64,000 nucleotides of DNA from Bryobacterales bacterium (lineage in GTDB: Bacteria > Acidobacteriota > Terriglobia > Bryobacterales > UBA6623). The position numbers and the translations under genes are program-made. The notes under the pieces were generated by a model. That model was not told the DNA's origin. It saw nothing but the letters and a program-made list of their open reading frames with translations, and ran no database searches. Of the stretch, positions 822 to 16,526 are shown in pieces; position 1 is the stretch's first letter, and each line of letters opens with the position of its first letter. The stretch lies in NCBI GenBank assembly GCA_022826925.1, contig JAJDTX010000130.1:1-64000 (forward strand). Direction: 5' to 3'.

Positions 822-3329
822 GTGACGCGATCCGGGCAGCCTCGTCGGTCGCTCTCGATGCGCCTGCGCCTAGCCTTTCTGGGGCTGGGCCTGGCCGCCA
901 TTGGGCTAACAGGATTTCAGTCCTATCAGATTGCCCACCGTGCCCTTCAGCAGGCCAGCTACGAACGTCTGACGGGCATTCGGGAAACTAAGAAGCGCCA
1001 AGTCGAGACATACTTTCGAGACACGGCTCGTATCCTCGCAACCCTCGCGCGAGACGAATCCGTAGCCGACGCCTACTTGGGCTTTCAAGCCGCATGGTTG
1101 CAGCTCGAGACCCAGGCTTCGCACGGCGAGAACCGAGAAGTGCTCGCCGCCGCTTACGTTAATCGCGTAGTGTCCCGCTTTCCCGGCCAGCCCGAACCGC
1201 CCGCGTCCAATGACCTCCTCCCGGCTTCCGTGGCAGGGACAGTGCTGCAGGCTCGCTATTGGCTGAACTCGACGTCGGAGCCGACCACCCTCGGTGACGA
1301 CTATGCCGCCGTGCATCGTTTGCATCACCCCAGCTTGGCCGATTTTGCGGATGCCTTCGGCTTTGAAGACCTGCTGCTTATCGATCCGACATCGGAGACC
1401 GTGCTCTATTCCGTACGGAAGGGGCATGACCTCGGCATCGCGCTCGAGCAGGTCGGCTATGCAAGCAGCAGTCTTCGCGAGGCTGCAAGGCGCAGCCTGG
1501 CGGTGGGAGCCGGCACGGTAATCGTCGACTTCGCCCCCTACTCTGGATCATTCGGCTCGCCGGCGCTCTTTGCCACGCATGCCGTAGTCGCTCCCGGCGG
1601 CGAGCAAGGCGTGTTGGCAGCACGTTTGTCGGCTCGCAAGCTCGACGACGTGATGACAGGCGGCGGCAGCTGGCTACGCGAAGGCCTCGGCGAATCGGGC
1701 GAAACCTACTTGGTGGGCTCTGATCTCCTGATGCGCAGCGATTCCCGCTTCCAGCTCGAGACCCCGGATGCCTATTACAGGCAATTGCGCGAAATCGGCT
1801 ACTCGCCGAGTTCGCTCGAGCGGCTGAGGAGCAGCGGCACCTCGGTCCTCCTCCAAGCCGTGGACACCGCTGCCGCGCGCCAGGCACTTGCGGGCAGGGC
1901 AGCCACCCAGCAAGTCGCTGACTATCGCGGCATCCAAGTGCTCAGCTCGTATACGCCGCTCGCCCTTCCCGACCTCGATTGGGCCCTGCTTTCGGAAATC
2001 GACGTGGAGGAGGTGTTTCGTCCGGTGCGGGCGCTGCGCCTCCAACTGGCGGCCTTGGCCCTGTTGATCTCCGGCGCCTTTGCCGTCGTCGGCTACCTCA
2101 TCGCCCGCAGAACCACCCGACCATTGCTCGCCCTGACGGCGGAGGTCGAGCGCCTCGGTCGGGGTGGCCGCATCCAGGCCAAGTCGGCCAGAACTTTCCG
2201 CGCGGCAGACGACGAAATCGCCCGACTGTGGCAGACCTTCGAAGATCTCACTGAGCGACTTAGTGCCACGCTCGTGTCCCGCGACCACCTCGACAGCCTG
2301 CTGGCGTCCATGATCAACGCCGTCTTTGTCTTGGGCAACGTGGGCGGCGGAAGCCGCAGCAGTCCTCTCGTCACCTCGGCGAACCCGGCGGCCTGCCGCT
2401 TGCTGGGCTACAGCGCGGAGGAGTTGCGCGACATCCCGCTCCGAGCGATCGTCGGAAGCGCGACTGACGAGCCTCCCTGGATAGCGCGGCTGCGCCGTGA
2501 CAGCTCGTTGCCCGCGATAGAGAAGGAGCTCGTCGCCGCCGACGGCCGACGCATCCCGGTGCTCTTCACCGCTGCGCTTGTCGACGACTCTGGAAGCGCG
2601 GGCCGCGAAGCAGTCTGCGTGGCGCAGGACATCACGGAGCGCAAGGCCGCCGAAGAGCGCTTGCGGGCTAGTCGCCAAGAACTCCGCGTATTGGCTGGGA
2701 GGCTGCTCAACGCCCAGGAAGATGAGCGCAGCAGGCTCGCCCGCGAGCTTCACGACGACGTGACCCAGCGCCTGGCGATGCTGGCCATCGATGCCGGCAA
2801 GCTGGCTCGCGGCGCCAAGCTGGACGAGAATGATCGGAATGCGCTGGCGAGGCTCAAAGAGCTAATCGTCGTCCTGTCGCATGATGTCCAAGACCTGTCC
2901 CGGCGACTGCACCCGGCGATGCTCGACGACCTCGGTCTGCCTGCCGCTATGCGCGCCGAGTGCCGGAGCCTCTCCAAGCGGTTGGGCATCCCGGTGTCCT
3001 GCGCCTCCGAGAACCTGCCTGTGGAGTTCCCGCGTGAATCCTCCCTGGCGCTCTACCGCATCGCCCAGGAGTCGTTTCGCAACATCGCCGCTCATTCCGG
3101 CGCTACCGAGGTCAGCGTCGAGCTAGGCTTCGTGAACGGCAACGTGCGACTCAGCATCGAGGACGACGGCCAAGGCTTTGATCGGGAGGAGGCGCGCCGC
3201 AGCGGAGGCTTGGGGCTAGCCAGCCTCGGCGAACGGGCACGGCTCGTCGGCGGGCGCATCGACATCCGCACCTCCCCCGGGGAAGGGGTGAGAATATCGG
3301 TCGAGATCCCGCAGACAAACTCGCTATGA
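822..3329 (+). CDS. Membrane sensor histidine kinase, NarL type
   Basis: This is an 835-residue transmembrane sensor kinase expected to phosphorylate the regulator encoded just downstream. An N-terminal membrane segment (about residues 17-33) precedes a ~370-residue periplasmic sensor region, probably Cache-like. A second membrane segment (around 405-430) leads into HAMP, then a PAS domain (~490-610). The HisKA_3 dimerisation domain carries RELHDDV with phospho-acceptor His644. The C-terminal HATPase domain shows the N box ESFRNIAAHS and the G boxes DDGQGFD and GGLGLASLGERA. The GTG at 822 is used; the ATG at 858 starts exactly before the membrane segment and is equally plausible, as neither has a clear ribosome binding site. 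The stop overlaps the next gene by 4 bp (ATGA). The ligand is unknown. Confidence 0.92.
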   Translation: MTRSGQPRRSLSMRLRLAFLGLGLAAIGLTGFQSYQIAHRALQQASYERLTGIRETKKRQVETYFRDTARILATLARDESVADAYLGFQAAWLQLETQASHGENREVLAAAYVNRVVSRFPGQPEPPASNDLLPASVAGTVLQARYWLNSTSEPTTLGDDYAAVHRLHHPSLADFADAFGFEDLLLIDPTSETVLYSVRKGHDLGIALEQVGYASSSLREAARRSLAVGAGTVIVDFAPYSGSFGSPALFATHAVVAPGGEQGVLAARLSARKLDDVMTGGGSWLREGLGESGETYLVGSDLLMRSDSRFQLETPDAYYRQLREIGYSPSSLERLRSSGTSVLLQAVDTAAARQALAGRAATQQVADYRGIQVLSSYTPLALPDLDWALLSEIDVEEVFRPVRALRLQLAALALLISGAFAVVGYLIARRTTRPLLALTAEVERLGRGGRIQAKSARTFRAADDEIARLWQTFEDLTERLSATLVSRDHLDSLLASMINAVFVLGNVGGGSRSSPLVTSANPAACRLLGYSAEELRDIPLRAIVGSATDEPPWIARLRRDSSLPAIEKELVAADGRRIPVLFTAALVDDSGSAGREAVCVAQDITERKAAEERLRASRQELRVLAGRLLNAQEDERSRLARELHDDVTQRLAMLAIDAGKLARGAKLDENDRNALARLKELIVVLSHDVQDLSRRLHPAMLDDLGLPAAMRAECRSLSKRLGIPVSCASENLPVEFPRESSLALYRIAQESFRNIAAHSGATEVSVELGFVNGNVRLSIEDDGQGFDREEARRSGGLGLASLGERARLVGGRIDIRTSPGEGVRISVEIPQTNSL

Positions 3330-3973
3330 CTAGATTCCCCTCTTCTCGTAAGCCTCGCGTGCTGGTTGCCGACGACCATCGAATCGTCGCCGAAGGCCTT
3401 CGCGGGTTGCTCGAGCCGGAATTCGAGTTGCTGGAGGTAGTAGAAGACGGCCGAGCGCTCCTGGAGGCGCATGATCGTTTGCACCCCGATATCGTAGTCG
3501 CCGACGTGACGATGCCCCTCCTCAATGGCATCCAGGCCGTACGCCGCTTGCGCGAGTCCGGATCGTCAGCGAAGTTCATCTTCCTTACGATGCACCCCGA
3601 GGTGAGCTACGCGACCGAGGCGCTCGATGCCGGTGCCGCGGGCTATGTCCTGAAGCACTCGGCCCCCGAAGAGCTGGTCACCGCGATCCGCGAAGCCCTG
3701 GCTGGACGCACCTATGTCACGCCCCGCATCGCCGGCGGAGTATTGGAAGCTTTGCGCCGCGGCGGCGAGGTTAAGCCCCGCCTAACCTCCCGCCAAGCGG
3801 AGGTGTTGCAACTGGTCGCCGAGGGTCGCTCCGCGAAAGAGATTGCGACGCTGCTCGACCTATCGCCTCGCACGGTCGAATCCCACAAATACGCCATCAT
3901 GGAGCAGGTAGGCGTCAAGACCACCGCAGAGTTGGTCCAATACGCAGTCAAGCAGGGTCTGGTCGGCCGCTGA
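3326..3973 (+). CDS. NarL/FixJ response regulator
   Basis: This 215-residue regulator has an N-terminal receiver domain (acidic pair at 16-17, phospho-acceptor Asp60 in VVADVTMP, conserved Lys in GYVLKHS) and a C-terminal LuxR-type helix-turn-helix (LTSRQAEVLQLVAEGRSAKE through SPRTVESHK). It overlaps the upstream kinase gene by 4 bp, so the two form a translationally coupled pair. It should act as a cytoplasmic DNA-binding regulator; its targets are not visible. The exported-protein gene 139 bp downstream is one candidate simply by position. Confidence 0.94.
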   Translation: MTRFPSSRKPRVLVADDHRIVAEGLRGLLEPEFELLEVVEDGRALLEAHDRLHPDIVVADVTMPLLNGIQAVRRLRESGSSAKFIFLTMHPEVSYATEALDAGAAGYVLKHSAPEELVTAIREALAGRTYVTPRIAGGVLEALRRGGEVKPRLTSRQAEVLQLVAEGRSAKEIATLLDLSPRTVESHKYAIMEQVGVKTTAELVQYAVKQGLVGR

Positions 3974-4548: not shown

Positions 4549-4573
4549 GCGGGCGTCTCTTCGAGGCGTCCGC
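4549..4573 (+). terminator. Candidate intrinsic terminator hairpin
   Basis: An 11-bp stem (4549-4559 with 4563-4573, two G-U pairs, 3-base loop TTC) lies 26 bp after the stop of the small exported protein. It is followed by TCTGCTTTGTGTG, a weak T-rich run. The position and strength fit a terminator separating that gene from the lipid operon. Confidence 0.5.
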
Positions 4574-4681
4574 TCTGCTTTGTGTGCCGAGCATGTTCGG
4601 CAGATTGACAGCGGAGAGTCCCGCGGAGAGCCTAATGAAGGTGAAGTTCTGGCATGAATCTCTTTTTTGTTTAGATATTGT

Positions 4682-4694
4682 ATAGTTATACTAT
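4682..4694. promoter_or_regulatory. AT-rich palindrome at head of lipid operon
   Basis: ATAGT-TAT-ACTAT is a perfect 13-bp odd-centred palindrome inside a sharply AT-rich island (4660-4694) in otherwise GC-rich DNA. It ends at the ATG of the desaturase gene and overlaps TATAGT/TATACT hexamers that could serve as a -10 element. It could be an operator for the MerR/B12 regulator encoded at the end of the operon; that link is inference only. Confidence 0.4.
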
Positions 4695-5730
4695 GGCGCA
4701 GGGCGTGGCGCAGTCGTCCCCGAACAAGCCACATGACCTAGGCCACTCGGAAGACGCGGTTGCGGGGCCGTCGGCAGCGACTCGTGAGCGGCGGCTGCCG
4801 CCTTGGCTGCGCCGCTGGTTCGATAATCACCAAGCCCTCGGGGACGAGGCACGACAGGCTGGTGTCGAATGGCTGCGGTGCCTTCCGTTCCTGGCTATGC
4901 ATGCAGCGACACTGGGCGTCATCTGGGTCGGCTGGAGTCCGGTGGCGATTTGGATTGCGGCTGCCGCGTTCCTAGTCCGTATGTTCGCAATCACTGGCTT
5001 CTATCACCGCTACTTCTCGCACCGCGCATTCCGCACGTCGCGGGCATTCCAAGGGCTAATGGCCTTCGTCGGAGGATGCGCCGCGCAGAGGGACCCGATG
5101 TGGTGGGCGTCGCACCACGTTCAGCATCACTTGCACTCTGACTCTCCCGGCGACCCGCATTCCCCGAGCCTGTCAGGGTTCCTGGGCAGCCACGCAGGGT
5201 GGTTCATGACAGGGGAGGGATTCCAGACGCGATCCAAATTCGTGCGCGACTGGGAGAGATTCGCCGAGCTGCGCTTTCTCAATCGATTCGACTGGGTGCC
5301 CCCCCTGCTCTTCGCAGCGCTGATCTACGTGCTTGGATGGTCGCTGGAGCGGTTCAGGCCAACCCTCGGCACGAACGGGCCGCAGCTGCTCGTCTGGGGG
5401 TTCTTTATCTCAACCATCTGCCTCTACCACGCAACCTTCACGGTGAACTCCTTGGCCCACGGCTGGGGTCAGCGGCGGTTCGCGACCGGAGATGACAGCC
5501 GGAACAATTGGTTCCTCGCTCTGCTAACCCTCGGCGAGGGCTGGCACAACAACCACCACCACTGTCCGGGCGTGGCCCGGCAAGGGTTCTATTGGTGGGA
5601 AATCGACATCACCTACTACGGCCTGGTCGTCCTGTCCAAGCTCGGCTTGGTCTGGGATCTGCGCCCCGTTCCAGCAGGCGTGGTGGAACGACGACGCATC
5701 GACAGCCCCTCCGGAGGGAGTGCAGCATGA
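4693..5730 (+). CDS. Acyl-CoA/acyl-lipid desaturase, delta-9 family
   Basis: This 345-residue integral membrane di-iron desaturase introduces a double bond into fatty acyl chains. The three histidine clusters of the stearoyl-CoA desaturase family are present: HRYFSH, HHVQHH and HNNHHH, separated by hydrophobic membrane segments. The ATG at 4693 is preferred over the in-frame TTG at 4678, because the family normally starts with a short cytoplasmic leader. It opens a cascade in which each following gene overlaps by 4 bp, so the unsaturated product is probably the substrate for the CFA-like methyltransferases downstream. The electron donor is not encoded in the window. Confidence 0.93.
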   Translation: MAQGVAQSSPNKPHDLGHSEDAVAGPSAATRERRLPPWLRRWFDNHQALGDEARQAGVEWLRCLPFLAMHAATLGVIWVGWSPVAIWIAAAAFLVRMFAITGFYHRYFSHRAFRTSRAFQGLMAFVGGCAAQRDPMWWASHHVQHHLHSDSPGDPHSPSLSGFLGSHAGWFMTGEGFQTRSKFVRDWERFAELRFLNRFDWVPPLLFAALIYVLGWSLERFRPTLGTNGPQLLVWGFFISTICLYHATFTVNSLAHGWGQRRFATGDDSRNNWFLALLTLGEGWHNNHHHCPGVARQGFYWWEIDITYYGLVVLSKLGLVWDLRPVPAGVVERRRIDSPSGGSAA

Positions 5731-6977
5731 GGATCGCGGTGGTCGGCGCGGGAATCTCTGGCCTGACGTGCGCCTACTATCTTTCTGGCCGCCATGACGT
5801 CACGGTCTTTGAAGCATCTGACCGAATCGGCGGCCATGCGCACGCAGTCAACGTCAGTGTTGATGGCCAAACGGCCCACGTCGACACGGGTTTCGTTGTG
5901 TTCAACGAAGTCAACTACCCGCTATTCACTCGATTGCTCCGCGAACTCGAGGTCGACACCCAACCGACGTCGATGAGCTTCAGCGTGCGCTCGGACGTGT
6001 CGGGCGTGGAATACAACGGCTCCTCCGTCAACGGGCTCTTCTCCCAACGGCGCAACCTCATTAGGCCGCGGTTTCTCGGCATGCTGCGCGACATCGCGAG
6101 ATTCCAGCGGGAGGCGCCGACTCTGGCACGTTTGGTAGCAGATGACACGAGTGTGGAATCATTCGTAACTCAGGGGCGGTACTGTCGCAGCTTCGTCGAG
6201 GACTACCTGATTCCGCTGGGCTCCGCCCTCTGGTCCGTGCCGCAAGGGACGTTCAGGCGATTCCCGATACGGCTGGTCGTAGAGTTCCTGGGCAACCATG
6301 GCATGCTGCGGTGGAGTCGGAGGCCCGTCTGGCGAGTGATCCGCGGCGGGTCGAGCCGCTATGTCGAAAGGATCTCTCAGCCGTTCCTGCGCAACATCGT
6401 CCCCAAGACTCCCATAGTAGCCATCGACCGCCGCGCGTATGGAGTCTGCGTGGTGGAACGCTCGGGCAGCTGCGGGGACTTCGACCACGTGATCCTAGCC
6501 TGCCATGCCGACCAAGCGCTCCGGCTCTTGCAGCGCCCTTCCCCCCGCGAATCGGAGATCTTGGGATCGTTCCCGTACCAGCAGAACGAAGCCGTGCTCC
6601 ACACCGACCCGGCACCCCTCCCCAAGCGCCGCCGGGCTTGGGCGAGTTGGAACTACCGTGTTCGGAGGCAGTCCAACGAGCGCGCCACCGTGACCTACAA
6701 CATGAATCGTCTGCAGGGAATCGAAACCCGAGCGCTGCTCAACGTCACGCTCAACGATTTTTCGGAAATCGCCGATGGGCGAATACTGAAACGGATGCGC
6801 TACGAGCATCCAGTATTCACTTCTGCACGCTCTAGATCGCAGGAGCGCCATCGGGAGCTTATCGATACGAATCGAACGTCGTACTGCGGTGCCTACTGGG
6901 GATATGGATTCCACGAAGACGGCGTGCGAAGCGCCGTTAAGGTCTGCCGCGCACTCGACCCGGAGTCAGCCAAGTGA
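5727..6977 (+). CDS. FAD/NAD-binding amine-oxidase-like protein, COG2907
   Basis: This 416-residue flavoprotein starts directly with a Rossmann dinucleotide motif (VVGAGISGL, then an acidic residue in [13 protein letters not shown]), typical of the flavin amine oxidase/desaturase superfamily and of the COG2907 subgroup. The start is set by a GGAGGGAG at 5713-5720 and a 4-bp ATGA overlap with the desaturase. COG2907 proteins are repeatedly found beside DUF1365 and CFA-synthase genes, and relatives in the Rhodobacter furan-fatty-acid pathway act on methylated acyl chains. A role in oxidising or desaturating a modified lipid is therefore likely, but the exact reaction is not shown by the sequence. 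Confidence 0.88.
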
Positions 6978-7750
6978 ACAGCAGCCTGTACAGGGGCTGG
7001 GTCCGCCACCGCCGTTTCCTCCCCGTGAAACACGAGTTCCGCTACCGCGTGTTTCAGGTCCTTCTGGACCTGTCAGAGCTCGACAGCGTGTTTGCCGGAC
7101 GCTGGCTCTGGTCGGCGAAGCGGTTCTCTCTGGCGTGGTTCCGCAGAGAGGATCACCTGGGCGATCAATCGCTGCCTCTCGAGGAGGCAGTCCGGCGGGA
7201 GGTCGAGCGCGAAACGGGAGTGCGCCCGCAAGGACCGATCCGGTTGCTGACGCACTTGCGCTATTTCGGATATGTCATGAATCCGGTGAGTTTCTACTAC
7301 TGTTTCGACAAGACCGGCCAGCGCGTGGAGTCCATCGTGGCGGAGGTGCATAACACCCCGTGGGGCGAAAGACACTGCTATACGTTCGCTTGGAATGACG
7401 GCCAAGCGTCCGCTGCGGCAAACACGTTCGAGTTCCGCAAAGAATTCCATGTTTCGCCTTTCATGGCGATGGATCAGTCCTACCGCTGGAGTTTCTCCGA
7501 CCCGGCGGGTGTTCTTGCCGTCCACATGGAATCCAGCGAAGGCGGCAAGGACATCTTCGACGCAACCCTCCGACTGGAGAGGGTGCCTATGGACGGTCCG
7601 GCGCTGGCAGGGGTGCTAGTGCGGTACCCGCTAATGACGCTCCATGTCGTGGCAGCCATCTACTGGCAGGCGCTCCGGCTGTTCCTGAAGCGATGTCCGT
7701 TTCACCCGCACCCCAAGCTCGCCGTCCCGCCTCGTTCGACAGTCCAATGA
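6974..7750 (+). CDS. DUF1365 family protein
   Basis: This 258-residue protein belongs to DUF1365, recognised from the N-terminal [20 protein letters not shown] segment, the [20 protein letters not shown] block and the [15 protein letters not shown] block. The biochemical activity of the family is not established. It is almost always encoded between a COG2907 flavoprotein and a CFA-like methyltransferase, exactly as here, so a role in the same lipid modification is inferred. It starts with GTG in a 4-bp GTGA overlap with the previous gene and ends in a 4-bp overlap with the next. Confidence 0.9.
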
Positions 7751-9024
7751 CCGAAGCATCTGCTCCCAAGCTCGCGCTGCCCAGCAGGACGGTTGCATTC
7801 CGCTGGATGCAGCCGCTGGCCAAGCGAAGCCTGAAGAATCGCCTGAAGGGACTGAGAAGGGGTGGCCTGATGATCGAAGAGGACGGCACGGCCCGCTTCT
7901 TCGGCGAGCCGGGCGGTCTCCGAGCTACAGTCGCCATCCGGAACTCGCAATTCTGGACGGATGTCGTGCTAGGAGGGACTCTCGGGGCCGCCGAGTCGTA
8001 CATCCTCGGACGCTGGCAAGCAGACGACCTGACCGCGGTGTGCCGCATACTTGCGCGCAATCTGGACCTGAGCGACGGCATGGAAGGGGGTTGGGCCAAG
8101 GGTGCTTCGATGGCTGCCAGGTGCTTGCATGCCCTAAACCGCAACACCCGCCGGGGGGTGGCCAGCAACGTCAAGGCGCACTACGATCTCGGGAACGATT
8201 TCTTCAGGCTATTGTTGGACGAGACGATGAGCTACTCGTGCGCCATATTCCGGTCCCCTGACGAGCCGCTCGAGACCGCTTCGACGCGCAAGCTAGACCT
8301 GGCCTGTCGCAAGCTGGACCTTACGCCCGCGGACCACTTGCTTGAGATCGGCACAGGATGGGGCAGCTTGGCCATCCACGCGGCACGGGAGTATGGTTGC
8401 CGGGTCACGACGACGACAATCTCGAGCGAACAGCACCTGTTGGCCCGGCAGAGGGTGAGCGATGCCAACCTCGGGGATCGCATTGAGGTGAGGCATCAAG
8501 ACTACCGCGACCTCACTGGGCGCTTCGACAAGATCGTCTCGATCGAAATGATCGAGGCGGTCGGGCACGAGTTCGTCCCGGAATACTTCGCCCGCTGCAG
8601 CAACTTGCTGAAGAACGACGGCTTGATGCTACTACAAGGGATCTTGATGGCCGAGCATCGCTACGAATCATACAGGCGCTCAGCCGATTTCATCCAGCGC
8701 TACGTCTTCCCGGGAAGCTGCCTCGTATCGATGGCGACGATCGCCGGTGCGGTTGCCCGAAGATCCGACATGCGCATGGTCCATCTCGAGGACCTCGCCC
8801 CGCACTACGGCGAGACCCTGCGCCGCTGGAAGGCGAATTTCCACGAGCATCTCCCCGAGATTCGTGCACTCGGTTACCCAGAGGGCTTCATACGCCTATG
8901 GGACTTCTACCTGTGCTACTGCGAAGCGGGCTTCGAGGAACGCTTGATCGGAAATGTTCAGCTGCTGCTGGCCAAACCCGGCAATCGACGCTCGCCGGTC
9001 CGGGCGGCATTGGAGCAGGCGTGA
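7747..9024 (+). CDS. CFA-synthase-like SAM methyltransferase (copy 1)
   Basis: This 425-residue protein is of the cyclopropane-fatty-acid synthase family, which transfers a methyl group from S-adenosylmethionine to a double bond in a phospholipid acyl chain. The SAM motif [11 protein letters not shown] is clear, and the [11 protein letters not shown] and HYGETL blocks align with active-site Cys, Glu and Tyr regions of E. coli Cfa. At the place of the Cfa histidine (LHTIG) this protein has LLQGI. A Gln there is usual for the CFA-like methylases of DUF1365 clusters as I recall them, so the product may be a methylated rather than a cyclopropane chain. Its ATG overlaps the DUF1365 gene by 4 bp. 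Confidence 0.9.
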
Positions 9025-9575
9025 CGTATCTGGTCAATCTGGGTGCCTTTCAGGCGACGTGGCTGGTGACCGTCTTTGCGGCCGCCGAAGGAAGGCTGTG
9101 GCCCGGCGCATCGGTGCTCGCGTGCTCCGTCGCGGCGCAGTCGGCCCGACGACTGAACGTCAGGCTGCCGGGCCTTGGCTTGCTCGCCGGCACCGCAGCG
9201 ATCGGATTGTGCAGTGATTCCGCGCTCTGGAGGCTAGGCTGGATCAGCTTCCCAGAGCACGCACAAATCGGCTGGCCAGTCCCGGTGTGGATGAGTGTCC
9301 TGTGGGTCAACTTTGCGACGACTCTGGACGAGTCGTTGGCATGGGCAGGCAAACGTCCCTTGCTTGCAGCGGCTCTAGGAGCTGTGGGCGGCCCGCTCTC
9401 CTACCTGTCCGGCGAGTATGTCGGCGCGCTGACTGTCGGCCCGCGGGCGGGAGCGGTGTTGGCGCTGGCCGGCTTGTGGGCCATGGCGATTCCGCTTCTC
9501 GCCTGGATCGCGAAATCTTTGCGGGGCTCTGGCCATGCCGGAGCCCCTTCCGCTGTCAAGGGAGGCCCCTCGTGA
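9021..9575 (+). CDS. DUF2878 family membrane protein
   Basis: This is a 184-residue protein with about five or six hydrophobic helices, starting with GTG in a 4-bp GTGA overlap. The opening YLVNLGAFQATWLVTVFAA and the WVNFATTLDESLAW block fit DUF2878, a family known mainly from clusters with DUF1365, DUF1295 and CFA-like methyltransferases. It has no known activity. Its membrane location suits handling of lipid substrates next to the other members of the operon. Confidence 0.8.
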   Translation: MTYLVNLGAFQATWLVTVFAAAEGRLWPGASVLACSVAAQSARRLNVRLPGLGLLAGTAAIGLCSDSALWRLGWISFPEHAQIGWPVPVWMSVLWVNFATTLDESLAWAGKRPLLAAALGAVGGPLSYLSGEYVGALTVGPRAGAVLALAGLWAMAIPLLAWIAKSLRGSGHAGAPSAVKGGPS

Positions 9576-10357
9576 CTCCCTTGACACTCTGGTCGCTGGG
9601 CTGGGCTGGTATCGCGGCGGCGATGGCAGCGCTTTGGGCAGTCCAGCGCAGATCGGGCAGAGCCGACGTTGTGGACCTTGCGTGGACGATGGGAACGGGC
9701 GGGCTCTCCGTCTTCTACGCCATAACCGGCGATGGAGACCCTTCTCGCCGCGCCCTAGTCGCCTTGCTCGGCGCAGCCTGGTCCGGGCGTCTCGGATGGC
9801 ACTTGGCCGCTAGGATCCGCAGGTCTCCCGAGGACGGCAGATACGCCCGCTTGCGCACCGGCCGCGACGAGTCCGTCCAAGGTTGGCTGTTCGGGTTCTT
9901 CCAAGCTCAGGGGTTCCTCTGCGCCTTGTTTGCCATTCCGGCACTCGTAGCAGCCGGAAACCCAACCTCCGTTGGTTGGCTCGATGCGCTGGGATGCGCC
10001 ATCTGGATTACAGCAGTCACGGGCGAGGGTATCGCCGACCTCCAACTGGACCGCTTTCGCAGGGACCCGGCCAACCGGGCCGAGGTTTGTCGCAACGGCC
10101 TATGGAGGTACTCCCGGCACCCGAACTATTTCTTCGAATGGATTCATTGGTGGAGTTACGTCTGCATGGGGTGGGGGGCGCGTTTCGGCTGGGCGACGCT
10201 AGTCGGGCCAGCTGCGATGCTGTTCCTCATCTTCAAGGTCACCGGCCTGCCACCCACCGAAGCCCAAGCGCTGTCGAAGCGGGGGCAGGCGTACCGGCAG
10301 TACCAGAGCGAGGTCAGCCCCTTCTTCCCGTGGTATCCAAGAGGCGGCACGGGATGA
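9572..10357 (+). CDS. DUF1295 (steroid 5-alpha-reductase-like) membrane protein
   Basis: This 261-residue polytopic membrane protein has the C-terminal signature GLWRYSRHPNYFFEW of the DUF1295/steroid 5-alpha-reductase and isoprenylcysteine methyltransferase superfamily. The N-terminal half carries several hydrophobic helices and the conserved RADVVDLAWTMG motif. NAD(P)H-dependent reduction of a lipid double bond is the activity suggested by the family, but it is unproven for DUF1295. It begins with GTG in a 4-bp overlap with DUF2878 and ends in a 4-bp overlap with the second CFA-like gene. Confidence 0.88.
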   Translation: MTPLTLWSLGWAGIAAAMAALWAVQRRSGRADVVDLAWTMGTGGLSVFYAITGDGDPSRRALVALLGAAWSGRLGWHLAARIRRSPEDGRYARLRTGRDESVQGWLFGFFQAQGFLCALFAIPALVAAGNPTSVGWLDALGCAIWITAVTGEGIADLQLDRFRRDPANRAEVCRNGLWRYSRHPNYFFEWIHWWSYVCMGWGARFGWATLVGPAAMLFLIFKVTGLPPTEAQALSKRGQAYRQYQSEVSPFFPWYPRGGTG

Positions 10358-11403
10358 ACGAGGCGCTGTTGTCCATGGCGCTGGAAGCAGCCGAACGAGG
10401 CAACTTGCCGGATTCTCTGATCCGGTCGGGCATCCGCCTGCTTTGTGCGCAGCGCTTGCGCGAGGAGGCTCGGCTGCTGGCTAGCCAGCAGCCTGATCGG
10501 CCCGATCGAGACGCGGTGGTGGCTCCTGTTCCCGAACTCGCCAACCAGCAGCACTACGAAGTTCCGCCCGCCTTCTTCCAGATAGTGCTCGGCCCTGCGC
10601 TCAAGTACAGTTGCTGCCACTGGGGCAACGCGGTCAACGATCTTGATGAGGCTGAGCGTGCGGCGCTCAGCGCAACCTGCCAACACGCCGAACTCGAGAA
10701 CGGTCAGGAAGTGCTGGAACTAGGCTGTGGCTGGGGGTCGCTAGCGCTATGGATCGCCGAGCACTATCCCCGGAGCAGCGTGTGGGCCGTTTCCAACTCG
10801 CACTCCCAGCGCGAATTCATATTGGAGCGTGCGAGGCAACGCGGCCTCGCGAACCTGAAAGCCATGACCACGGACATGAACGTCTTCGAGCCCGGGCGGT
10901 CATTCGACCGGGTCGTTTCGGTCGAGATGTTCGAGCACATGCGAAATCACGGCGAACTCATGAAGAGGATCGCCAGCTGGCTCAGGCCCGGCGGCAAGCT
11001 CTTCGTCCACCTCTTCTGCCACCGGGAATATAGCTACAGCTTCGAGACAGAGGGAGCGTCAAACTGGCTCGGGCGCTACTTCTTCACCGGCGGTCTGATG
11101 CCGAGCGAAGCACTATTACCTAGCTGCCAAGATCAGCTGGACCTACAGTGCCAATGGAGGTGGAACGGGACGCATTACCAGCGCACCGCATCAGCATGGC
11201 TGGAGAACCTAGATCGGGGGCACGACCGAGCGCTGCCAATCCTCCGTCAAGTGTACGGGGAACGCGCCGCCGAGCGCTGGTTCGGCAGATGGCGGCTGTT
11301 CTTTCTGGCGTGCGCTGGACTCTGGGGATACCGCAACGGGTCGGAATGGGGCGTGGCGCACTACTTGTTCGAAAAGCCCTTGGCGGGAGAACTCGCAGCA
11401 TGA
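10354..11403 (+). CDS. CFA-synthase-like SAM methyltransferase (copy 2)
   Basis: This 349-residue methyltransferase differs strongly from copy 1 in the same operon. The SAM motif is VLELGCGWGSLALWIAEHYP and the active-site-region blocks LKYSCCHWG and VSVEMFEHMRNH are present, while the C-terminal half (FFTGGLMPSEALLP, HYQRTASAWLENLD) resembles the subgroup that includes coclaurine N-methyltransferase-like enzymes. It probably methylates a second position or a different lipid intermediate. The ATG sits in a 4-bp overlap with DUF1295, so it is the seventh coupled gene of the operon; 55 bp then separate it from the regulator. Confidence 0.88.
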   Translation: MNEALLSMALEAAERGNLPDSLIRSGIRLLCAQRLREEARLLASQQPDRPDRDAVVAPVPELANQQHYEVPPAFFQIVLGPALKYSCCHWGNAVNDLDEAERAALSATCQHAELENGQEVLELGCGWGSLALWIAEHYPRSSVWAVSNSHSQREFILERARQRGLANLKAMTTDMNVFEPGRSFDRVVSVEMFEHMRNHGELMKRIASWLRPGGKLFVHLFCHREYSYSFETEGASNWLGRYFFTGGLMPSEALLPSCQDQLDLQCQWRWNGTHYQRTASAWLENLDRGHDRALPILRQVYGERAAERWFGRWRLFFLACAGLWGYRNGSEWGVAHYLFEKPLAGELAA

Positions 11404-11424
11404 GCCTCCTCCGGCGAGACTAGC

Positions 11425-11450
11425 ATGGAGGGGAAGAGCTCAGCCTCCAT
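11425..11450. promoter_or_regulatory. Inverted repeat before merR-type gene
   Basis: ATGGAGG (11425-11431) and CCTCCAT (11444-11450) form a perfect 7-bp inverted repeat with a 12-base spacer in the 55-bp gap before the regulator gene. It could be an operator for autoregulation or an mRNA hairpin that masks a ribosome binding site. The evidence is positional only. Confidence 0.3.
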
Positions 11451-11458
11451 TCGGCGAG

Positions 11459-12487
11459 ATGACTGACAACGCCATGAGTCCCACCCCGCCCTACAAGATG
11501 GGGACAATCGTGCGACTCACCTCATTCGCCCCTCAGCGCCTAAGGGCTTGGGAGCATCGCTACGACTTGCTCCGTCCTTGCCGAGGTGAAGGAGGGCACC
11601 GGCTGTATAGCGAAGAGGACCTGCGCGTGCTGTGCGCGGTGCGCGAGTTTCTCGGCACGGGCCGCACGATCGGCGAGATCAATAGGATCGGCCGGGATGC
11701 AATTCTCGACGGGACTGCTCGACCACGCGGAGGACGCACGAGGACAACTGCCGCATTTCAGCGGGTCGCCGCAGAAGACATTCCACTAAAGGCAGATACG
11801 TTGGTGAGCCGCCTCGTCAAGGCGACCCTCGCCATGGACGAGTCGGAGCTGCAGCGAGTCCTAGATCAGGCCTTTTCCACATTGTCGGCAGAAGTCGCAA
11901 TCGATCGAGTCATTGCTGCGTCGTTGCGACGCATCGGAAACCTGTGGGCCGGTGGCCTATGCACGATTTCGAGTGAGCACCTCGCCACGAGGATCTTCAC
12001 TCATCGAGTTCGAACGCTGTTCGAGCAGGAAGCCTCGGCGAATCTCTCCCGCAAGCCGAGGTTTCTGTGCGGCTGTTTTCCTCAAGAACGGCACGAACTA
12101 GGAATTCTGGCGCTCAGCTATTCCCTGGCCCTAAGGAAAGCGCGCGTGACGGTGCTGGGTTCCGAGGTGCCCCTGCCCGACCTTGAGCGAGCTTGTCGGG
12201 CCACCGCACCCGAAGCGGTGCTACTTTCCGTCTCGGACGATGCGCTCTATTTCGAGCACAAGGCCGAGCTACTCGAACTTAGCAGCCGAATTGGCCTGCA
12301 TACAAGAATCGTGCTTGGCGGCGCTGGTATCCCGGCTGGGGACACAGATCTTTCCGGCGCCGGAGTGACGGTCATTGCGTGCTCGGATTCTCTCGGGCAA
12401 ACTGCGGAATCGCTGCTGGCTGACATCCGAGGCCACGCTGCCAGCGCACGAAAGCCTAAGTCGAAGAGGCGTCAGCTTGGCCCTTGA
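11459..12487 (+). CDS. MerR-family cobalamin-binding regulator, CarH/LitR type
   Basis: This 342-residue regulator has an N-terminal MerR helix-turn-helix (residues 13-60: MGTIVRLTSF, LRAWEHRYDLLRP, GGHRLYSEEDL), a helical linker domain and a C-terminal B12-binding domain. Trp163, nine residues and Glu173-His174 reproduce the W-x9-EH signature that caps adenosylcobalamin in CarH. ERHELG with His212 matches the lower cobalt ligand site, and LGSEVPL and VLLS follow the usual Rossmann-like pattern. Known relatives bind adenosylcobalamin in the dark, repress as tetramers and release DNA on illumination. It is likely to control the upstream lipid operon. Start at 11459; Met6 at 11474 is possible. 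Confidence 0.9.
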   Translation: MTDNAMSPTPPYKMGTIVRLTSFAPQRLRAWEHRYDLLRPCRGEGGHRLYSEEDLRVLCAVREFLGTGRTIGEINRIGRDAILDGTARPRGGRTRTTAAFQRVAAEDIPLKADTLVSRLVKATLAMDESELQRVLDQAFSTLSAEVAIDRVIAASLRRIGNLWAGGLCTISSEHLATRIFTHRVRTLFEQEASANLSRKPRFLCGCFPQERHELGILALSYSLALRKARVTVLGSEVPLPDLERACRATAPEAVLLSVSDDALYFEHKAELLELSSRIGLHTRIVLGGAGIPAGDTDLSGAGVTVIACSDSLGQTAESLLADIRGHAASARKPKSKRRQLGP

Positions 12488-14756: not shown

Positions 14757-15086
14757 TTACCGACAGCAGCGTGGTCCGACACTGCCAATTGCCCGCGCGC
14801 GCGGATCGCCCGACTCCACTGTGGATCTTCAGCGCAGTGCCGTCACCCCAAGTTCTGACGATCAAGGCACCTGCTCGGGCTCGCGCACTTCTAATACCTG
14901 GTTTACCGAAACGCGTCCGAGATCTTGAACAGTGCCGCCGGGCCACGTGACCTGCACGGCAATATCTTCGGATGCCCCGAGGCCGAAATGCACCCCGTCA
15001 TGGCTAGACGAAGCGTAGCCGACCGCACTGGTCATCACGTTGGCCTGCCGACCTGCGCGGACCGTCGCGCCGATCCCGTCGCGGTT
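14757..15086. repeat. 330-bp duplicated segment, copy B
   Basis: This is the partner of 444-773. It includes the last ~225 bp of the CRTAC1 gene and ~105 bp of its 3' flank, extending to within 23 bp of the antiporter stop. In both copies a minus-strand frame overlapping the stop region keeps GTALKIHSG and WQCRTTLLSV in register through two compensating indels, which may be chance or a small dispersed coding or structural repeat. Confidence 0.85.
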
Positions 15087-16526
15087 GGACTTCCTCCCCA
15101 CGAGCCGGACATTCAGCCACGCTTGCTCTCGCGGGCTGGTGTTGTGCCATAACTCGGCCGCCCCACCCAGCGAAGACACCACCACGTCGACGCGGCCATC
15201 GCGGTCGAAATCCGCGAACGCACAGCCGCGGTGGGCCCTTGTCGTGCTCGCGAAGGCCTCGCCGGCGGCAGCCGTGACCTCCTCGAACGACCCGTCCGCA
15301 CGATTGGCGTACACGCTGTTGGTCTCGCGATACGGCGTCGTGGGCTCGAACTCGCGGATGATGTCGTTGACGTGGGAGTTGGCCGTGAACAGATCCTTCC
15401 AGCCATCGTTGTCGAAGTCGTACAGGCCGTTGCCCCAGCCGCTGTGGCGGTTGGAATACAGCGCCAAGCCGGACGGGCCGGTCACGTCCTCAAAGAAGCC
15501 GTCACCGAAGTTACGGAAGAGCGGGAACGTCTCGGCGATCAAGGCGGTGACCGCCACGTCCGGCAAGCCATCGTTGTCGTAATCGCGGAAATCGACGCCC
15601 ATGCTCGCCACGGGGTCGCCATGTTGCAGCAGAGCCGTGCCCGAGAACAGCCCCGCTTCTTCGAAGCTCTCTCCGGCCTGATTGAGGAACAGAAAGTTCG
15701 GCAGGTTGTCATTCGTGACCAACGCGTCAGTCCAGCCGTCGCCGTTGGCGTCAGCGAATGCCACGCTCATGCCGCGCCCGGAATGGTCGCTGACCCCAGT
15801 CGCCGCACTCACGTCCCGGAACGTGCCGTCACCGAGGTTGCGATACAGCCGATTCGGTGTCGGAGTCAGCTGCATCGGGTCGCAGTAGGCGCGGAGCCCG
15901 CGCCTCTCGTCGCCGCAGTATGTGTCGAAATCCAAGCTCCAGTTCGCATAGTTGACCACGAACAGATCAAGGTGCCCGTCGGCGTCGTAGTCGAACCACC
16001 CAGCAGCCACGGACCACTGGCCGCCTTGCAGGCCGGAGTCCGCGGTGACATCCTCGAAGACGCCATCGCCTCCATTGCGCAGCAGGGTTAGGCGAAAGAC
16101 TCCGGCCACCAGCAAGTCGACATCGCCATCGTTGTCGTAGTCGGCCGCAGCCACGCCCGTGTCATATCCGGTACCCGCAACGCCAGCCTCGGCGGTGACA
16201 TCGCTGAAGCGCAGTTCGCCATCGTTGCGATACAGGCGGTTCCAATACTCCGGCGCTACCTTGCTCAATGATGGGATCGCCGCGCCGTTGGTGAAGTAGA
16301 TGTCCGGCAGGCCATCGCCGTCGTAGTCGAAGATGGCCACACCGCCCGCCATCGTCTCGATCATGTGCTTTTCGGGCGTGGGGTGGTTGTGCAGCACGAA
16401 GTCGACCCCCGCCGATCCCGCGACATCGCGGAATTGGATTTCGCCGGGCGCACCGTGCAGCATCACCGCCGCAACCAGCAGGCTTGCGAGCGTCAGAGAG
16501 GTCCGGGCTACTCGCTCTTGATCCAT
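14862..16526 (-). CDS. Exported FG-GAP/ASPIC-UnbV (CRTAC1-like) protein
   Basis: This 554-residue protein has a signal peptide (ends near MLHGAPG), then repeated FG-GAP/VCBS calcium-type loops such as DYDGDGLPD, DYDNDGDVD, DYDADGHLD, DYDNDGLPD, DFDNDGWKD and DFDRDGRVD, predicted to form a beta-propeller. The C-terminus is the ASPIC/UnbV domain (AWLNVRLVG, RKSNRDGIGA, QVTWPGG). Proteins of this kind are abundant in Acidobacteriota beside TPR proteins and large TonB receptors; their function is not settled, with surface binding suspected. It overlaps the upstream TPR gene by 19 bp, so the two are coupled. Its 3' end is duplicated at 444-773. Confidence 0.92.
   Translation of the reverse strand: MDQERVARTSLTLASLLVAAVMLHGAPGEIQFRDVAGSAGVDFVLHNHPTPEKHMIETMAGGVAIFDYDGDGLPDIYFTNGAAIPSLSKVAPEYWNRLYRNDGELRFSDVTAEAGVAGTGYDTGVAAADYDNDGDVDLLVAGVFRLTLLRNGGDGVFEDVTADSGLQGGQWSVAAGWFDYDADGHLDLFVVNYANWSLDFDTYCGDERRGLRAYCDPMQLTPTPNRLYRNLGDGTFRDVSAATGVSDHSGRGMSVAFADANGDGWTDALVTNDNLPNFLFLNQAGESFEEAGLFSGTALLQHGDPVASMGVDFRDYDNDGLPDVAVTALIAETFPLFRNFGDGFFEDVTGPSGLALYSNRHSGWGNGLYDFDNDGWKDLFTANSHVNDIIREFEPTTPYRETNSVYANRADGSFEEVTAAAGEAFASTTRAHRGCAFADFDRDGRVDVVVSSLGGAAELWHNTSPREQAWLNVRLVGRKSNRDGIGATVRAGRQANVMTSAVGYASSSHDGVHFGLGASEDIAVQVTWPGGTVQDLGRVSVNQVLEVREPEQVP

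Follow-up and report, generated by a model that had tools for sequence, protein, structure and literature searches.

Organisation of the locus

The DNA analysed here, called the window throughout, is a stretch of 64,000 nucleotides from a Bryobacterales bacterium (contig JAJDTX010000130.1, assembly GCA_022826925.1). It carries a string of seven same-strand enzyme genes starting at about 4693 and overlapping by about four bases each, followed after a gap of 55 bases by the gene of a CarH-like MerR/B12 regulator (Table 1). The coordinates, frame and strand assigned to this gene in a first-pass annotation were right, as was its description as the operon-distal gene, running in the same direction as the others.

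Table 1. Features of the operon, its operator and the regulator (nucleotide positions in the window, or residues of the regulator protein).
Feature	Position	Strand	Basis or remark
Terminator-like hairpin in the gap between a small upstream gene and the operon	4549-4573	+	Consensus scan; 3 sites in the region against a shuffle mean of 7.4, weak
Degenerate third operator unit	4656-4666	-	
CarH-type operator, two tandem 11-bp direct repeats nAnnTnnACAn	4667-4688	-	TAACTATACAA at 4678-4688, TATCTAAACAA at 4667-4677
Membrane fatty acid desaturase, first gene	4693-5730	+	PF00487, E 7.6e-21; true start maybe GTG 4705
FAD-dependent oxidoreductase (amine-oxidase-like), UfaD-like by domain and position	5727-6977	+	PF01593, E 5.7e-24
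DUF1365 protein, UfaO-like	6974-7750	+	PF07103, E 2.5e-87
SAM-dependent fatty-acyl methylase, cyclopropane synthase family, UfaM-like by position	7747-9024	+	PF02353, E 8.9e-88
DUF2878 protein	9021-9575	+	PF11086, E 2.6e-33
DUF1295 protein	9572-10357	+	PF06966, E 4.4e-64
Second cyclopropane-synthase-family methylase	10354-11403	+	PF02353, E 4.4e-40
CarH-like MerR/B12 regulator, last operon gene	11459-12487	+	342 aa; ATG 11459, stop 12487
MerR HTH, PF13411	residues 12-77		49.5 bits, cut-off 21.6
B12-binding_2, PF02607	residues 117-187		Domain search
B12-binding, PF02310	residues 201-292		32.9 bits, cut-off 32.1
Codons of W163 and Ala164	11945-11950	+	Alignment; TtCarH W131 and His132
Codon of Cys168	11960-11962	+	10/11 clade rows, 0/30 others
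Codons of E173-H174, upper cap	11975-11980	+	Alignment, motif
Codon of Cys206	12074-12076	+	11/11 clade rows, 0/30 others
Codon of H212, predicted lower axial cobalt ligand	12092-12094	+	Alignment

Furan fatty acids are made by the SAM methylase UfaM, the FAD enzyme UfaD and the DUF1365 protein UfaO, and the Rhodopseudomonas palustris furan genes RPA2571-2570-2569 stand in the order D-O-M (excerpts of PMC7380195). The operon has this same gene content and order, and from its domains and their order it is predicted to resemble the ufaD-ufaO-ufaM pathway. The second methylase may, at a guess, be FufM-like and add the second furan methyl.

Directly upstream of the operon, positions 822-3973 hold what by eye is a probable sensor kinase together with a LuxR-type response regulator. 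The region is flanked by two copies of a sequence of about 330 bases, at 444-773 and at about 14757-15086, which are 89% alike as gauged through the related contig L003. Within the first copy is the tail of a gene that is found complete at 14862-16526 on the minus strand; from inspection by eye, we take this gene to be of the FG-GAP/UnbV type.

Cobalamin-site residues of the regulator

Among solved structures, the best relatives of the regulator are TtCarH entries (phmmer; 3whp at E 3.6e-22 and 5c8d at E 5.6e-22), and the engineered TtCarH H132A (8c35) is also found among its relatives in the PDB. The regulator scores 112.4 bits against the NCBIfam CarH equivalog NF052513, for which the cut-off is 400, and a single-sequence AlphaFold2 model reached a mean pLDDT of 36.0 and a pTM of 0.23.

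The residues singled out in the first-pass annotation (W163, E173-H174 and H212) are all present, and they align with W131, E141-H142 and H177 of TtCarH (residue numbers as in PMC10442372). WAGGLCTISSEH, starting at residue 163, is the sole match in the regulator to the CarH motif W-x9-EH, and ERHELG places a histidine at 212. Shuffling the regulator protein 20,000 times gave 46 occurrences of W-x9-EH, a chance level that is irrelevant here because of the homology to TtCarH seen in the match to 5c8d. In TtCarH, W131 stacks on the adenosyl group.

The claim that the regulator keeps the full CarH signature does not hold. His132, the upper cobalt ligand of TtCarH in the light (excerpts of PMC10442372), has its place occupied by Ala164. 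The signature of light-responsive AdoCbl binding is given as GxxW, EH, GxxH and GxxxP in excerpts of PMC11796333; the regulator has GNLW, EH and GSEVP, with QERH (Q209) standing where GxxH is expected. The definition of CarH in excerpts of PMC8156234 asks for two motifs, W-x9-EH and ExHx2Gx41SxV/Tx22-27GG. The positions and spacings of the second fit the regulator, with S259 in place of V/T; the strict form is matched by six of the 11 proteins of the regulator's clade, described below, and missed by five. The related claim that the cobalamin domain is not degenerate stands in that no degeneration is visible. The kept residues are nonetheless weaker evidence for it than had been supposed, since nearly all relatives found have them: the tryptophan in 40 of 41 rows and the glutamate, histidine and lower histidine in 41 of 41, in a sample of relatives from a similarity search with the regulator, which under-represents degenerate proteins. 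The sole loss of the tryptophan, to cysteine, is in a B12-MerR protein from genome G059 (L017).

Two proteins with substitutions at the His132 place bear on the consequences of Ala164. TtCarH H132A mostly stays tetrameric in the light, according to excerpts of PMC10442372, which also notes an earlier report of disassembly, and a natural alanine could therefore blunt derepression. For the light spectrum, PMC10442372 gives values of 352 nm for H132A and 359 nm for the wild type. CtMerR has an arginine there, yet its adenosyl group is lost in the light in anaerobic crystals (excerpts of PMC11796333), so that Ala164 does not exclude a photoreceptor. What the alanine does imply is that the light state cannot be the bis-His adduct of TtCarH. 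Judged by its sequence, the regulator is CarH-like rather than a textbook CarH, and it is not filed as CarH because of the B12-motif position and the incomplete light signature; it should still work like CarH, and the true photoreception proposed earlier appears plausible.

Residues at the oligomer contacts have changed in part. Arg176 of TtCarH is kept as R211 and Asp201 is replaced by Glu236 (alignment read against PMC10442372), and in our reading of the alignment Gly160 and Gly192 of the dimer-dimer contact correspond to Ala192 and Lys227. Loss of these glycines makes a tetramer doubtful, and a dimer, as reported for Cystobacter CarH (excerpts of PMC9304148), would be as likely.

A clade without the light ligand

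The window's genome contains one such regulator, a second match being at HTH level only (E 8.2e-4). Within the order, 27 of 150 genomes had a match at 1e-10, and 11 proteins in 10 genomes scored above 200 bits, the next reaching 77 bits; within the phylum, 13 of 297 genomes had matches at 1e-20, none above 92 bits besides the window's own. A genome-contig search with the regulator returned one relative, and a viral-contig search a short HTH match only. The 11 proteins form one clade with support of 100/99 in a tree of 47 rows, in which the Aeromonas and Salinivibrio rows have long branches and are unsafe. Clade counts leave out L018, which duplicates the gene in L003; L063 is likewise the L003 contig. 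A regulator copy that is 91% identical occurs in another Bryobacterales bacterium (genome G321), with the surrounding 10.5 kb of the window 92.5% alike. Distribution within the genus is patchy: besides the window's genome, matches were seen in four of the 10 genomes listed for the genus.

At the place of His132, the 11 clade rows have alanine (four), methionine (three), serine (two), threonine (one) or valine (one) and never histidine, which is found there in 13 of the 30 other relatives. Cys206 is present in all 11 clade rows and Cys168 in 10, and both are absent from the other 30. These counts rest on relatives chosen by similarity to the regulator. In the alignment used for them L006, L023 and L026 each contain one stop, shown as X; clean frames from L068 and L071 stand in for L023 and L026 in the later alignment and tree, and L006 is cut at X in the tree.

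The regulator is the last gene of the operon in five more loci (L063, L064, L065, L066 and L072). The operon of L072 begins with a RudS-type gene, and RudS genes are often found in light-responsive operons (excerpts of PMC11417400). In L067 a photolyase gene is divergent from the regulator; the window's genome, 93% complete, gave no match to FAD_binding_7 photolyase.

A tandem-repeat operator at the operon start

CarH operators consist of tandem 11-bp repeats of the form nAnnTnnACAn or nnnnTnnACAn, with three repeats for TtCarH, four in Bacillus megaterium, and in some myxobacteria no more than one or two full repeats accompanied by degenerate ones (excerpts of PMC8156234 and PMC9304148). An arrangement of this type, with tandem repeats at the target promoter as described in PMC9304148, lies at the start of the operon. 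A scan for three in-register 11-mers, with at least two TnnACA and a score of at least 12 of 15 points, gave one match in the 64 kb of the window, at 4656-4688 on the minus strand, which ends five bases before the first ATG. The positive control, a Thermus plasmid sequence of 7.7 kb, likewise gave one match (15/15), between carH and the phytoene synthase gene. There were no matches in 2.85 Mb of first-order Markov sequence, in ten simulations of the window or in ten loci without a clade regulator (155 kb), and among other B12-MerR loci three of 31 had matches. No inverted repeats of at least eight bases were found at 4630-4720, and readings of the site as a palindrome or as a Pseudomonas TGTACA-N12-TGTACA site were rejected, the repeats being direct at 11 bp.

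The operator recurs with the operon or regulator across the clade. Eight of 11 clade loci, the window included, have a match (seven of 10 if L063 is not counted apart), the others being L063, L064, L067, L068, L070, L071 and L072; by our measurement these matches overlap the start of the operon or regulator or lie within about 175 bases of it. L065, L066 and L069 had no match at the threshold. At the operon start the first two show ATACA units next to a single full repeat, and L069 has nothing at threshold before the regulator and two lower-scoring units behind it, before a receptor-like gene. A transposase-like frame, identified by eye, lies close upstream of the operator in L072 (635-1582), and the stretch before the L063 operator, which is not the same as in the window, looks transposase-like.

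The strict pattern ANNTNNACANNANNTNNACA was searched in the window's genome and in 16 relatives, comprising nine clade genomes and seven without a clade regulator. It matched five times in the 5.97 Mb of the window's genome (reversed control, three); one match is the operator (4668-4687), two fall within long open frames, and the remaining two are close to contig starts and outside any long frame. Totals were 18 in the nine other clade genomes (reversed control, 10) and nine in the seven genomes without the clade regulator (control, 10). The pattern alone is thus not rare, and it is its place that counts: we estimate, from a handful of matches per 4-8 Mb, that a match within 200 bases of a given gene arises by chance in the order of 1e-4 per genome. 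A strict match stands at the operon or regulator promoter in seven of the 10 clade genomes, the window's included. G300 has one match, at its operon, and G321 has two, one of them at the operon. One of two in G307 falls in the gap that separates the regulator from divergently read genes, a Polyketide_cyc-domain gene plus photolyase; the three in G323 lie at the start of the RudS-type gene heading the operon, before a second regulator copy and before a fasciclin gene; and two of the three in G371 overlap before the regulator. The single match in the 5.5 Mb of G317 precedes a complete seven-gene operon, with the regulator on another contig, and the operon would here be controlled in trans. At the operon or regulator no strict match was found in G309 (two elsewhere), G311 (four elsewhere) or G429 (none).

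Two side observations concern neighbouring genes. The G317 operon contig (operator at L108 10674-10706) also has photolyase-like and RudS-like frames by eye. CarH-type repeats precede fasciclin-domain genes in G323 (L103 2376-2408) and G429 (L071 11349-11392), and the fasciclin gene is a possible further regulon member.

The first-pass annotation proposed that repression would have to act far upstream and could be autoregulatory. Repression exerted at a site about 6.8 kb upstream, with autoregulation, is indeed likely, given the CarH-type operator at the operon start. The consensus scan found no promoter at 11380-11480, which takes in the 55-base gap ahead of the regulator gene, and none at 4600-4700 either, so that it weighs little on this point, and promoter hexamers have been assigned to neither operon nor regulator. 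Autoregulation is the simplest circuit that fits the terminal position of the gene, the 55-base gap and an operator located where the operon begins.

Cofactor supply

Neither corrinoid adenosyltransferase family was found in the window's genome (93% complete), which has two matches to AdoCbl-type methylmalonyl-CoA mutase. All nine other clade genomes have an adenosyltransferase, which makes a gap in the draft genome the likelier explanation; across 17 genomes, PF01923 was found in 15 and PF02572 in two. That the host is unable to make AdoCbl was set aside on the same grounds, G321, with its 91% identical regulator, being among the nine.

Proposed mechanism and alternatives

We hold with moderate confidence that the regulator is a CarH/LitR-like repressor, dependent on B12, relieved by light and acting on its own gene, which governs the protection of the membrane against photo-oxidation, and that its light state is not the bis-His state of TtCarH. 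What the sequences show directly is the residues, the domains, the operator and its recurrence beside operon or regulator; from these we infer cobalamin binding, repression, the light response and furan products. In the dark, AdoCbl would be held between the four-helix bundle, with W163, E173 and H174 above it, and the Rossmann domain, with H212 below. The loaded regulator would oligomerise and occupy the tandem repeats, shutting off the seven enzyme genes from desaturase to second methylase together with its own gene; as the repeats abut the first start codon, a regulator bound there would obstruct RNA polymerase in the manner of CarH systems. Light would cleave the Co-C bond and the repressor would leave the operator, allowing the cell to make modified, probably furan, fatty acids that guard the membrane from photo-oxidative damage. 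The regulator would rise with the operon, so that repression could return in the dark. The light end-state is more likely to have water bound or to be stabilised by E173, as has been reported of CtMerR. Speaking against this reading are the persistence of H132A tetramers in the light, the missing GxxH, S259 for V/T, the lack of adenosyltransferase matches in the window's genome, the changed glycines of the dimer-dimer contact, the single full repeat in L065 and L066, the L069 regulator with no match at threshold before it, the three clade genomes (G309, G311 and G429) with no strict match at operon or regulator, and the few repeats at other B12-MerR loci.

The absence of the light-ligand histidine from all 11 clade rows, together with the clade's own Cys168 and Cys206, would also suit a protein that binds cobalamin and acts on a CarH-type operator with no working photoreceptor, sensing instead the B12 level, the redox state or singlet oxygen, with the two cysteines as the redox part. 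This alternative, unlikely though to be taken seriously, draws further on the sigma/ChrR genes adjoining the related Pseudoalteromonas and Rhizobium clusters and on the rise of furan fatty acids upon loss of ChrR in Rhodobacter sphaeroides (excerpts of PMC7380195). It is at odds with the adenosyl-capping W, E and H, kept in 11 of 11 clade rows, with the photolyase and RudS-type neighbours, and with CtMerR and photocobilins, which are reported to respond to light without this histidine (excerpts of PMC11796333). The cysteines might also belong to a light sensor: it is a long shot that the clade dropped bis-His in favour of a cysteine-based light state, in which Cys168 or Cys206 ligates cobalt or the pair reacts after photolysis. 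One protein would then read light as well as oxygen or singlet oxygen, and control furan-lipid synthesis.

Ala164 is the exact residue of the engineered H132A, and B12 might be bound and photolysed while the assembly persists as in that mutant, making derepression by light slow or weak. We doubt this. CtMerR is reported to work without the histidine (excerpts of PMC11796333), and although none of the 11 clade rows has it, the operator is retained at most loci, which points to a switch that still works, the loss having been compensated. It is very improbable that the regulator is of the CarA kind, independent of B12 and with a cobalamin domain that is a relic. Such kinds exist (CarA, excerpts of PMC8156234; class II, IV and V LitR, excerpts of PMC9758184), and the MerR proteins in the like gene clusters of Aeromonas and Salinivibrio have no Pfam B12 domain, but CarA is described without W-x9-EH in excerpts of PMC8156234, and the clade as a whole retains the capping and ligand residues. 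Just as improbable is that the regulator acts as a classical MerR activator, twisting a promoter with a long spacer: the HTH is of MerR type and, in our reading, L065 and L066 show TTGACA or TTGATA, 20 bases and TATAGT, but the site is made of tandem direct repeats, in a stretch where the search for inverted repeats of eight or more bases came back empty.

Novelty and significance

LitR-family control of a ufa gene is already in print, for class II LitR of Pseudomonas putida (excerpts of PMC9758184). A literature search, mostly without subscription papers, found nothing joining furan fatty acids and CarH and nothing joining DUF1365, MerR and light. What we rate as new is a CarH-like clade lacking the light ligand and placed on a predicted lipid operon with a testable operator. 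CarH is known mainly as a carotenoid switch, and a CarH-type operator on a predicted furan operon in Acidobacteriota would mean that light sensing by B12 also serves the protection of membrane lipids, in a one-gene, one-site system suited to testing. The clade would also offer a natural experiment on the need for the His132 ligand switch in CarH-type release; excerpts of PMC10442372 argue for that need in TtCarH, and CtMerR in excerpts of PMC11796333 suggests that it does not always apply.

Comparison with known systems

Among plasmid records, 99 matched DUF1365 and 270 the methylase, with the contexts of four examined, and 194 matched the regulator, again with four contexts examined. In Azoarcus sp. 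KH32C pAZKH, a B12-MerR protein with W-x9-EH lies by FAD-DUF1365-methylase genes, with repeats scoring 13/15 between them; it differs in its 25% identity, its separate tree branch and a regulator gene that is divergent rather than terminal. The Aeromonas and Salinivibrio clusters have photolyase, DUF523-DUF1722 and MerR without a B12 domain beside FAD-DUF1365-methylase-DUF2878, and the Pseudoalteromonas cluster and the Rhizobium plasmid have a sigma/ChrR pair. The Caballeronia and Comamonas regulators had no such operon adjoining and no repeats at the threshold used.

The Rhodobacter furan genes associated with ChrR/sigma-E share the FAD enzyme, DUF1365 protein and SAM methylase (UfaD, UfaO and UfaM; excerpts of PMC7380195), but are linked to a singlet-oxygen anti-sigma factor and not to a B12 regulator. 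The Pseudomonas class II LitR proteins PplR1 and PmlR2 belong to the LitR family as well, and ufaM is among the light-inducible genes under the P. putida PplR proteins (excerpts of PMC9758184). Class II LitR, however, has only one half of the B12 domain left, the four-helix one, PmlR2 works with a LOV partner, and the operator T(G/A)TACA-N12-TGTA(C/T)A is unlike direct 11-bp repeats.

CtMerR (PDB 8JBS/8JBT) is a B12-MerR protein without a His132 equivalent that is reported to respond to light (excerpts of PMC11796333), and it matches the regulator over residues 12-290 (phmmer, E 1.4e-9); it differs in having arginine where the regulator has Ala164 and in keeping the GxxH signature. With TtCarH the regulator shares domain order, the W-x9-EH cap, the lower histidine, the ERHExG loop and tandem 11-bp operator repeats, and a photolyase gene lies near Thermus carH too (L088). 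The two are 26% identical and differ in the alanine for His132 and in the clade-specific cysteine pair, and whereas TtCarH controls carotenoid genes, the regulator described here seems to control a lipid operon.
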